DNA of 15,356 bases, taken from contig RFQK01000014.1 in the NCBI GenBank assembly GCA_009925045.1, forward strand, positions 1 to 15,356, given 5' to 3'. Source of the stretch: Methylococcaceae bacterium (GTDB lineage: Bacteria; Pseudomonadota; Gammaproteobacteria; Methylococcales; Methylomonadaceae). The notes beneath the pieces are model-generated. The model did no database searches and was not told where the DNA came from. It was given only the letters and a program-made list of their open reading frames with translations. Positions 11,394-14,889 of the stretch are shown piece by piece (positions within the stretch are counted from its first letter, which is position 1; every line of letters begins with the position of its first letter). Made by a program: the position numbers and the translations under genes.

Positions 11394-12179
11394 ATGAGCA
11401 AAAGAGTGAGCAAAGCAGTTTTCCCGGTTGCTGGTCTGGGCACCCGTTCTTTACCCGCCACTAAAGCGGTGGCTAAGGAAATGTTGCCGGTCGTGGATAA
11501 ACCGCTGATTCAGTATGCCGTTGAAGAAGCAGTAGCGGCGGGTATTGATACGATGATCTTTGTGCTGGGCCGCAATAAGAATTCGATTGCTGACCACTTT
11601 GACAAATCTTATGAGCTCGAAAAAGAATTAGAAAAAAGTGGCAAAACTGAACTCTTAGACATGTTACGCAGCATTTTGCCGCCTCATGTGACTTGCGTGT
11701 TTGTGCGTCAGGCAGAAGCCCTGGGTTTGGGGCACGCCGTCCATTGCGCTAAAGCTGTGGTGGGTGATGAACCGTTTGCCGTGATTTTGCCGGATGATTT
11801 GATCGAAGACGGTCAACGCGGCTGTATGAAACAAATGGTTGATTTGTTTGCTGAGCAACAAAGCAGCATTTTGGGGGTCGAGCGTGTCGACCCGAAAGAA
11901 ACGCATAAATACGGCATTGTTGAACACAGTGAAATTGCTCCGGGTGTGGGTAGGTTGCAATCGATAGTCGAAAAACCCAAACCTGAAGTCGCCCCCTCCA
12001 ACATCGCCGTGGTCGGTCGTTATATTCTGACAGGCGCTATTTTTGAGAAAATTGAAAAAACCGGCCGTGGTGCGGGCGGTGAAATTCAGTTGACCGATGC
12101 AATCGCTGCTTTGATGAATGATGAGCCTGTGTTGTCGTATGAATTTGCCGGCAATCGTTATGATGAAAGACAGTATTGA
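11394..12179 (+). CDS. galU: UTP-glucose-1-phosphate uridylyltransferase (GalU), 3'-truncated
   Basis: GalU makes UDP-glucose from glucose-1-phosphate and UTP for polysaccharide and LPS synthesis. Residues 1 to about 257 are typical: nucleotide loop FPVAGLGTRSLPATKAVAKEMLPVVDKP (10-37), FVRQAEALGLGHAV, the metal-site VILPDDLI, YGIVEHSE, the IVEKP lysine and GRYILTGAIFE. The family normally continues after FAGNRYD with CGSKLG and another 35-45 residues (E. coli GalU is 302 long). Here the reading frame instead gives ERQY and a stop, for 261 residues. From about 12163 the DNA encodes ExbB in another frame, so the 3' end of galU has been lost by a deletion or assembly join. The missing C-terminal part includes the conserved CGSK motif near the active site and helps form the oligomer, so the product is probably inactive. 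The start is ATG 11394, with a weak CGAGAC ribosome site. Confidence 0.85.
   Translation: MSKRVSKAVFPVAGLGTRSLPATKAVAKEMLPVVDKPLIQYAVEEAVAAGIDTMIFVLGRNKNSIADHFDKSYELEKELEKSGKTELLDMLRSILPPHVTCVFVRQAEALGLGHAVHCAKAVVGDEPFAVILPDDLIEDGQRGCMKQMVDLFAEQQSSILGVERVDPKETHKYGIVEHSEIAPGVGRLQSIVEKPKPEVAPSNIAVVGRYILTGAIFEKIEKTGRGAGGEIQLTDAIAALMNDEPVLSYEFAGNRYDERQY
12159..12171 (+). other. galU/exbB fusion junction
   Basis: Sequence up to the TATGAT at 12159-12164 fits GalU (Arg-Tyr-Asp), while sequence from the ATG at 12163 fits ExbB (MKDSIEEVGRHV). The join is out of frame, so no GalU-ExbB fusion protein is made. The few shared bases around TATGATG would be enough microhomology for an illegitimate deletion, but the join could equally be a misassembly. 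Confidence 0.7.
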
Positions 12180-12516
12180 AGAAGTAGGGCGTCATGTGGC
12201 TCACGAATTAGAGCGTTACCTCACAACTCTGGGGAGTATCGCCGCTGTGACACCTTTGCTAGGCTTGTTAGGAACCGTCGATGGGATTATTCGTGTGTTT
12301 TCCGCCCTGGCTGTTGAAGGTATTAACGATCCTGCTGTCATTAGTCATGGTATTTCTGAGGCCTTGATTTGCACCGCTACAGGCCTGATTGTGGCGATTC
12401 CCAGTCTGTTTTTTCACCGTTATTTTGAAGCATTGGTCGATGATCATGTGTTGCAAATGGAAGAAAATGCTTTGCGTCTGATCGATCTGATGCAAGGTGA
12501 CCGTGAGTTGATTTAA
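12160..12516 (+). CDS. exbB: ExbB/TolQ-family proton channel protein, 5'-truncated
   Basis: ExbB with ExbD forms the proton-driven motor that energises TonB-dependent outer-membrane transport. Only about 118 residues remain of a protein usually near 200-240. The product would start MMKDSIEEVGRHVAHELERYL, which in complete family members is internal, after the first transmembrane helix and cytoplasmic loop. The two later membrane segments are intact: one with LGSIAAVTPLLGLLGTVDGIIRVF (about 25-48) and one with GISEALICTATGLIVAIPSLFF (about 65-86). The C-terminal tail is also normal. The reading frame is open further upstream (ATG 12118) but that part is galU sequence read out of frame. ATG 12160 and 12163 lack a Shine-Dalgarno, so translation, if any, would depend on ribosomes finishing galU at 12179. 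Lacking TM1 it is probably not functional. It overlaps exbD by one base. Confidence 0.82.
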   Translation: MMKDSIEEVGRHVAHELERYLTTLGSIAAVTPLLGLLGTVDGIIRVFSALAVEGINDPAVISHGISEALICTATGLIVAIPSLFFHRYFEALVDDHVLQMEENALRLIDLMQGDRELI

Positions 12517-12950
12517 TGGAGTTTCGTCGCAAACGCCGCCGCTCAGTTGAAATCGGTCTGATACCCATGATCGATGTATTACTGGTGTTGTTGTTTTTCT
12601 TTATGGTGGCGACTACTTTTCGTCATCAAGCCGATATCAAGCTGGATTTGCCCAAAGCCAGTGTCGGCGAGCAAGCGGTGGCGGGTCAGCAAATTAATCT
12701 GTTTGTCCTGGCTGAAGGCGGCTATCGCCTGGATACTGGGGAAGCGAGTGCTGAGCATCTAAGTTCAGGTCTGGAAAGTTTAAAATCTGCTTTGCAGACT
12801 TTGCCGGCTGAGAGTAAACAATGGCCCTTTATTATCAATGCAGATGGCAAAGCTAGCCATCAGGCTGTGATTAGTGTGTTGGATCTTGCCAACCAACTGG
12901 GTTTTTATCACTTTAGTTTTGCTGTGGATGCAGCCTCTAAGCATGAATAA
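12516..12950 (+). CDS. exbD: ExbD/TolR-family biopolymer transport protein
   Basis: Partner of ExbB in the TonB motor. The 144-residue protein has a basic cytoplasmic start (MEFRRKRRRSVEIG), one transmembrane helix (about 14-34, LIPMIDVLLVLLFFFMVAT) carrying the proton-path aspartate at residue 20, and a periplasmic domain (about 40-144) of the usual fold. Everything expected is present. Its ATG shares a base with the exbB stop (TAATG) and a GAG lies 8 nt upstream. Position before lpxK suggests that this exbBD pair is the copy found in many gammaproteobacteria next to lpxK-kdsB. TolR is less likely because there are no tolA or tolB neighbours. Confidence 0.92.
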   Translation: MEFRRKRRRSVEIGLIPMIDVLLVLLFFFMVATTFRHQADIKLDLPKASVGEQAVAGQQINLFVLAEGGYRLDTGEASAEHLSSGLESLKSALQTLPAESKQWPFIINADGKASHQAVISVLDLANQLGFYHFSFAVDAASKHE

Positions 12951-13944
12951 ATATTTGTCTGCCTGGATACAAAGTTTCTGGTACAAGGAAATGTATTTAT
13001 CCAGTTTCTTCATGCCGCTGTCGATGATATATCTCGACATTATGCGTTTGCGTCGTTTTCTATACCGTATAGGCATATACAAAAGTGTGCGTTTGCCGGT
13101 GCCAGTGATTATCGTCGGTAATATTACGGTAGGTGGAACCGGTAAAACCCCTTTGGTAATTTATCTGGTTGAGTTTTTGCAACGCCAAGGACTCAAAGTT
13201 GGCGTCATCAGTCGAGGTTATCAGGGCGAAGAAAAGCCGGAACCACGACTGGTGTCAGTCAAGAGTGATCCGGCTTTAGTGGGTGATGAAGCCTTGTTAC
13301 TGGCCAAACATTGTGCCTGTCCGGTCGTAGTCTGTGCCGATCGCGTGGCCGCTGGCCGGCATTTGCTGCTCAATACTCCGGTCGATGTCCTCATCAGCGA
13401 TGATGGGATGCAGCATTATGCTTTGCAACGCGATATTGAAATTGCTGTGGTTGACGGTAGTCGCCGTTTTGGTAATGGCTATTGTTTGCCCGTCGGACCT
13501 TTGCGTGAACCTCAAGAGCGTCTGCAGGAAGTCGATTTTGTGGTCGTCAATGGCGATAAAAATATCGAGCCGGGTGAATGGTCTATGCGTTGTCTAGGTA
13601 TAGATTGCATCAATATGCAAAACGGCGAGATCCGGCCATTGGCCAGTTTTCGCGGACAAGAACTGCATGCCGTGGCGGCCATTGGCCATCCGCAGCGCTT
13701 TTTTCGTCAGTTACAGCAAGCCGGTTTAAACATCAAAGCTCACCCATTTCCGGATCACCATGCCTTCACCCAAGAAGAGCTCCGTTTTGGTGATCAGTTG
13801 CCAATTTTGATGACCGAAAAAGATGCGGTTAAATGTCAGCGTTTTGCCAATGCGCAAACCTGGTATCTGCCGATCAAAGCCGAACTGGAAAGCGGCTTTA
13901 CCACCGAATTATTAACCTTACTCACTAGGAAACAACATGGATAA
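12943..13944 (+). CDS. lpxK: Tetraacyldisaccharide 4'-kinase (LpxK)
   Basis: Inner-membrane-associated kinase that phosphorylates the 4' position of tetraacyldisaccharide-1-phosphate to make lipid IVA. ATG 12943 gives 333 residues (E. coli 328) with the usual amphipathic/membrane N-terminus (about 15-45). The P-loop [13 protein letters not shown] is at about 58-70, VISRGYQGE at about 88-96, and the catalytic and metal region [14 protein letters not shown] in the middle. [15 protein letters not shown] and [10 protein letters not shown] are also present. The open frame extends upstream to 12874 but that is exbD read in another frame. The gene overlaps exbD by 8 nt and ycaR by 8 nt. Confidence 0.95.
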
Positions 13945-14128
13945 AAAACTGCTCGAAATACTGGCCTGCCCGATTTGCAAAAGCAGTCTGATCTATAAAG
14001 CTGACGAACAGGAATTGATATGCCGTGCCGATAAGCTGGCCTTTCCGGTTCGTGACGGTATCCCAGTGATGCTGGAAGATGATGCACGTGAATTGAGTGA
14101 TGAAGAAGCCAAGGCTTTGTATAAATGA
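13937..14128 (+). CDS. ycaR: Trm112-like small zinc protein (YcaR family)
   Basis: A 63-residue protein of the Trm112/YcaR family, nearly always found between lpxK and kdsB. It begins [15 protein letters not shown] and has the conserved CPxC pair (Cys11, Cys14) and a later cysteine in [26 protein letters not shown]. That makes three cysteines, as in E. coli YcaR. Its exact role in bacteria is not established; eukaryotic Trm112 activates methyltransferases. AGGA (13927-13930) lies 6 nt before the ATG. It overlaps lpxK by 8 nt and kdsB by 4 nt. Confidence 0.9.
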
Positions 14129-14889
14129 CCGCTTTTAAAGTCGTCATTCCGGCACGTTTTGCTTCGACACGATTGCCGGGCAAACCTTTGTTGGATATTG
14201 CCGGTCAACCGATGATCGCCCGTGTCTGTGAGCGTGCATTGCAGGCACACGCCGAGGAAGTCGTGGTGGCAACCGACGATCAACGGATATTTGATGTCGT
14301 CGCGGCTTTGGGAATTGATGTCGTCATGACCGATCCCGATCATCAGTCTGGTACCGAGCGTCTGGCTGAAGTGGCTCGCATTAAACAGTGGTCTGACGAT
14401 ACCGTGGTGGTTAATGTTCAGGGTGACGAGCCCTTGATTCCGCCCGACTATATTCGTGATTTGGCGCATACCTTAGCTAATCAGCAACAGGCGGGGATTG
14501 CCACACTCGCTGCCGCGATCGAGACACTCGATGAAGTGTTAAATCCCAATGCGGTTAAAGTTGTTTTGGATCAGGCCGGTTACGCTTTGTATTTCAGTCG
14601 TGCACCGATTCCTTGGCAGCGTGGCAGTTATCCGCAGAGTTTTCCCGAAGATAGTCGGGTAGCGCCTTTACGGCACATCGGTATGTACGCCTATCGGGTG
14701 GCTTTTTTGCATCAGTATTGCGAGTGGCCAGCCTCCGGACTAGAGCAGGTTGAATCTTTGGAGCAGCTGAGAATTCTCTGGCAGGGTGAAAAAATCGCGG
14801 TTAAGGTGGTGGCAAGCGCCCCCGAAGCCGGGGTTGATACGCCAGAAGATTTGCAGCGAGTGATTAATCGTCTTAGTGCTCAAGCATAA
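14125..14889 (+). CDS. kdsB: 3-deoxy-manno-octulosonate cytidylyltransferase (KdsB)
   Basis: Cytoplasmic enzyme that activates Kdo with CTP to CMP-Kdo, the donor for the first sugars added to lipid A. The 254-residue length is normal (E. coli 248). Motifs seen are [14 protein letters not shown] (9-22, nucleotide loop), VVATDD near 47-52, [11 protein letters not shown] (about 72-82), [11 protein letters not shown] (95-105, metal aspartate at 101) and the C-terminal VDTPEDL. The start overlaps ycaR (ATGA). It is the last gene of the run that starts at galU, and a strong terminator follows directly. Confidence 0.95.

Follow-up and report, generated by a model that had tools for sequence, protein, structure and literature searches.

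An out-of-frame join of galU and exbB in a draft genome related to Methylomonas is very probably an assembly artefact

In a draft genome of a Methylococcaceae bacterium, a galU gene and an exbB-like gene run directly into one another in different frames, and both are incomplete. Did the organism lose the ends of these two genes, or did the assembly lose the sequence between them? The window analyzed here comprises contig C36 in full (15,356 bp). It belongs to a draft of 2.0 Mb in 478 contigs, with a listed completeness of 83% and contamination of 0.6%; the completeness and the number of contigs suggest a metagenome-assembled genome. Among named organisms, Methylomonas has the GalU proteins closest to its own, and the genus is probably Methylomonas. 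The features around the join are collected in Table 1.

Table 1. Features of the window around the galU-exbB join and the evidence for each.
Feature	Position	Strand	Evidence
galU, residues 1-257 of about 293	11394..12164	+	TIGR01099, 351.7 bits (curated cut-off 326.8), profile 1-251 of 261
Join; overlap of the galU-derived and exbB-derived ends	12160..12164	.	blastn alignment edges
exbB/tolQ-type gene, last 117 of 204 residues	12163..12516	+	PF01618, profile 27-127 of 127; tail identical to P0121
exbD/tolR-type gene, apparently complete, next after exbB	12516..12950	+	ORF of 144 aa; TolR and ExbD models below cut-offs
lpxK (listed ORF; true start probably internal)	12874..13944	+	TIGR00682, 280.6 bits, above cut-off
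kdsB	14125..14889	+	TIGR00466, 312.4 bits, above cut-off

The galU open reading frame extends to 12179 and encodes 261 residues, of which the first 257 are native, ending with NRYD at Asp257. The final four, ERQY, are read off bases from the exbB side and are followed by the stop. The protein therefore reads RYD-ERQY where CGSK and about 32 more residues are expected, so that the last 36 codons and the native stop are absent, and yet it still passes the curated cut-off of its family model. The ExbB frame begins with MKDSIEEVGRH and continues for 106 more residues; compared with an intact homolog, P0121, the N-terminal 87 residues are absent, and by eye the first membrane helix falls within this lost part. 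The remaining fragment scores 101 bits against PF01618 (MotA_ExbB), well above the curated cut-off of 22.9. For the pair of genes ahead of lpxK (12163-12950), the TolQ and TolR models score best, all below cut-off, and the names exbB and exbD are for this reason approximate.

The edges of the join were defined by blastn, with the galU side aligning up to 12164 and the exbB side from 12160, an overlap of 5 bp. Microhomology was considered as a cause and rejected: the nearest intact ExbB proteins read GREVMKDS, that is, EVMK where the window has EMMK, which cuts the shared sequence of the native edges to 0-4 bp, depending on the native Tyr and Val codons, and leaves the ATGATG at the join partly accidental. 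By formula, a random join would share at least 2 bp in 16% of cases and at least 4 bp in 1.6%. The exact join sequence gave no match in viral contigs, and the missing segment, searched with the DNA of locus L009, was not found elsewhere in the draft (best E 0.44).

What would normally lie between these edges can be read from five genomes of the same genus (G033, G029, G035, G030 and G015; loci L157-L161). As in the window, exbB directly follows galU on the same strand; unlike in the window, both genes are intact, encoding 293 and 204 residues and separated by a spacer of 161-297 bp. The distance between the positions that correspond to the join edges is 669, 597, 628, 533 and 545 bp, respectively. 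Aligned to L007 and L009, the window runs to 12164 and resumes at 12160, with several hundred additional bp in the relatives, and its DNA identity to G033 (L009) is 73% to the left and 69% to the right of the join. A first-pass annotation of the window, which had also proposed a comparison with this locus in relatives, had described an out-of-frame junction near 12160, and both the open reading frames and these alignments confirm it. Its claim of a loss of several hundred bp between TATGAT and ATGAAAGAC, with both genes cut, agrees with the intact relatives, and its estimate of some 400 bp holds as a minimum; no whole gene lies there, however, contrary to a further suggestion, and both genes are intact in all five genomes in which this gene order was seen. 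The spacers of G033 and G035 (L157 and L159) contain a palindrome, TTCCCGC..GCGGGAA, that is absent from those of G029, G030 and G015. This repeat was discarded as a cause of the join because it was not found in the draft itself, allowing up to one mismatch, and is absent from three of the five relatives' spacers.

One reading of the join is that a short GalU of 261 residues and a short ExbB of 117 residues are natural forms, both under selection. Both frames are open, and the GalU fragment passes the TIGR01099 cut-off. However, among the best 120 of 1759 GalU relatives (E <= 1e-100) none has about 261 residues; 118 have at least 291 and two have 231-232, and when aligned to P0001, an intact GalU of 293 residues that is 97% identical to that of the window, each of the 16 solved GalU sequences found extends to residue 267 or beyond. 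Within the genus, a strong GalU match is present in 27 of 37 genomes, our draft included; the 26 others match the query only over its residues 1-257 and then continue, in open frames of 296-326 residues. A full-length ExbB is likewise found in 32 of the 36 other same-genus genomes, while the sole match in G027 is a protein of 36% identity and a search of the 36 at E <= 1e-20 returned none in G009, G031 and G032. We regard natural short forms as extremely improbable.

Public data also contain intact alleles from much closer sources. P0121, with 11 member sequences on 8 contigs, the longest 32 kb, is an intact ExbB of 204 residues that is identical to the window over all 117 retained residues. 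Since P0121 and P0001 are intact and come from almost the same lineage, that lineage is not fixed for the short forms. Relaxed selection following a loss of function was examined as well. The retained part of GalU departs from the genus at 1 of 196 conserved sites, within the range of 0-10 seen in the 26 other genomes. The ExbB tail departs at 8 of 85 conserved sites, the most among 31 rows (30 of the 34 genomes with a match, plus our own), and because the very same tail occurs in the intact P0121, these departures represent divergence of the lineage. Relaxed selection was rejected on both counts.

Is the join an isolated event in this draft? Contigs C1-C20 (164 kb, each 20 kb or less; 10% or less of the draft) were searched by tblastn with open reading frames from 1.2 Mb of a single reference, the closed relative G015, with thresholds of 60 bp for deletions and 40 residues for end-truncations. 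The 33 comparable genes (40.7 kb) contained four internal deletions of at least 60 bp, in gltB (262 bp), mdtB (365 bp), dnaX (179 bp) and secF (155 bp), along with one frame-changing 58-bp gap in ftsH and five end-truncations; neither insertions nor simple frameshifts were found in these genes. All ten flagged places were then read. Two are not deletions, namely the N-terminus of an RND membrane-fusion-type protein and a CDF transporter of the DmeF type in which the frame continues. The other eight are direct joins, that is, 8 of 33 genes, with about 58-365 bp lost in each, on contigs C1, C2, C4, C9 and C18 (loci L171, L172, L174, L179 and L188). The joins in gltB, mdtB, dnaX, secF and ftsH are out of frame, as is that in recR, which lacks roughly residues 59-123, whereas in cysJ the sequence DLAFS is joined in frame straight to DKRYVRDVY. 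On C9, a prepilin peptidase gene (pilD) lacks about its last 51 residues and continues in frame into coaE; the resulting ORF of 433 residues carries Pfam A24 and CoaE domains, whereas G015 has two separate, adjoining genes. This is a second case, like galU-exbB, of neighboring genes joined to one another.

These losses amount to about one missing stretch for every 5 kb of coding sequence aligned; at this rate, one in a 15-kb window is as expected. Under the same test the window yielded 13 genes for comparison, of which exbB alone was flagged; galU was not, since its 36 lost residues fall below the threshold of 40. The 33-gene test supersedes an earlier, looser count, which included some genes twice and gave 13 of 70 reference ORFs truncated in the draft's contigs and window, against 1 of 47 in G033.

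Two related drafts served as controls. In G033, 20 stretches (301 kb, 49 genes) contained no deletion and no insertion; one 1-bp frameshift was flagged, as was one end-truncation that proved on reading to be a variable N-terminus. In G035, which is about as fragmented and incomplete as our draft and in which 4 of the 20 contigs read only N, nothing was flagged in 29 genes. Together the controls show deletions in 0 of 78 genes, compared with 8 of 33. By one-sided Fisher tests, the difference gives p = 0.007 for automatically called deletions (4/33 vs 0/78), p = 0.00006 for automatic deletions or end-truncations (9/33 vs 1/78), and, for seven of the eight deletions that were read, p = 0.00013 against 0/78 and p = 0.0008 against 1/78. 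A systematic pattern of missing stretches is thus present elsewhere in the draft and absent from the genes compared in G033 and G035.

Such a pattern could arise if the whole lineage were decaying through many short deletions, galU-exbB being one of them. The 8 cut genes of 33 would fit this, as would the size of the draft, 2.0 Mb compared with 3.7-5.7 Mb in most same-genus genomes. On the other hand, the sample contains no insertions or simple frameshifts, secF and dnaX were found only as broken copies (though in a draft no more than 83% complete), an intact ExbB with an identical tail exists, and G033 and G035, themselves only 2.3-2.8 Mb, show no such cuts. Loss of dnaX or secF would normally harm growth, whereas gltB, mdtB, recR and pilD are often dispensable. 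Essential genes thus provide an argument of moderate strength, because ftsH is backed up by a second, intact homolog in the draft (67% identity), other genes are losable and the broken dnaX retains about its first 353 residues. We consider decay of the lineage very unlikely.

A more serious alternative is a real, recent deletion in the strain or in much of its population, in which illegitimate joining removed the ends of galU and exbB. The join is clean and collinear and the gene order conserved, features also expected of a real deletion. In addition, some members of the genus have lost galU naturally: 10 of the 37 genomes fall below the cut-off, with the gene missing or a remnant. On C1, an intact-looking TonB-ExbB-ExbD cluster could take over TonB energizing, which answers in part the first-pass point that a truly damaged strain would need other copies; a second galU, however, was not found in the draft. 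A further point in favor is P0127, a 106-residue ExbB fragment on a contig of 2,428 bp (three member sequences) that is identical to the ExbB tail of the window. It starts at the position of GTG 12196, the first in-frame ATG, GTG or TTG past the new galU stop, and may represent either another instance of the join or the end of a contig. Some sources keep V at a GTG start, as seen in P0138, which starts with V and is otherwise identical to P0141, which starts with M; the V of P0127 is therefore not decisive. Against a real deletion stand the seven or eight further deletions of like kind in 33 genes, compared with none in 78 control genes, the intact alleles from nearly the same lineage, the missing second galU and a retained galU that shows no sign of decay. 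Taken together, a real deletion at this locus is improbable.

Several further observations concern galU and UDP-glucose in the genus. PF01704 was found in none of the 37 same-genus genomes, but neither was it in 14 controls, so this result carries no weight on the question of backup enzymes. The second match of the draft to the GalU profile is a nucleotidyltransferase of 224 residues beside a kinase-like gene, a pair that resembles MurU/AmgK. Nine of the ten genomes without a GalU above the TIGR01099 cut-off are listed as 99-100% complete with 1-2% contamination, and the tenth, G032, is listed at 99% and 4%. C-terminal galU remnants are present in six genomes (G024, G001, G021, G012, G025 and G020; L151-L156). 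In G001 a gene of 506 residues lies between the galU pieces, and the same galU-less genome has a nucleotidyltransferase of 350 residues beside a flagellin-like gene.

We conclude from these comparisons of sequence that the galU-exbB join is very probably an assembly artefact. This reading is favored because missing stretches of this type occur repeatedly in the draft and not in the two controls, and because the changes go one way, without insertions, occur about once per 5 kb and leave dnaX and secF only as broken copies. The first-pass annotation had left the choice between misassembly and biological damage open; the former is supported, and damage in a living strain is not. The organism itself would probably have an intact galU adjoining an intact exbB-exbD-lpxK cluster, as in the five relatives. 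A stretch of probably 530-670 bp, comprising the last 36 galU codons and stop, the spacer and the first 87 exbB codons, would have been omitted, with its edges joined directly and no Ns inserted. The likely cause is a collapse of gaps, whether in assembly, in scaffolding or at an amplification step, since the observed picture would follow if unresolved gaps were closed by joining their two sides. The joins being free of N proves little by itself, because the 164 kb sampled from the draft contain no N and the samples from G033 and G015 are likewise without N.

Errors of a similar kind have been described for metagenome-assembled genomes. Uncorrected local errors and scaffolding gaps lead to incomplete or incorrect gene sequences in databases (PMC7111523), and about 65% of misassembly breakpoints fell in coding sequence in the test data of another study (PMC9661791). 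Our draft resembles these cases in that gene sequences are damaged; the exact pattern seen here, many short missing stretches without Ns, is not described in the passages of the two papers considered here. A search of the literature on Methylomonas galU returned no title on a truncation or join, and a narrow search on misassembly in such genomes gave no match.

Were the join nonetheless real, which we think unlikely, the sequenced population would carry a true deletion and belong to a methanotroph lineage in which numerous short deletions cut into genes. Such a strain would have no complete GalU and, next to an intact exbD-lpxK, an ExbB lacking its first membrane helix, while keeping the TonB-ExbB-ExbD cluster on C1. 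Under the far more probable artefact, a likely false claim of gene loss is removed. The wider consequence is for the draft as a whole: about one quarter of the sampled genes are cut, a problem that a completeness of 83% and a contamination of 0.6% do not reveal, and claims based on this genome that genes have been lost or become pseudogenes, or that pathways are missing, should await its reassembly.
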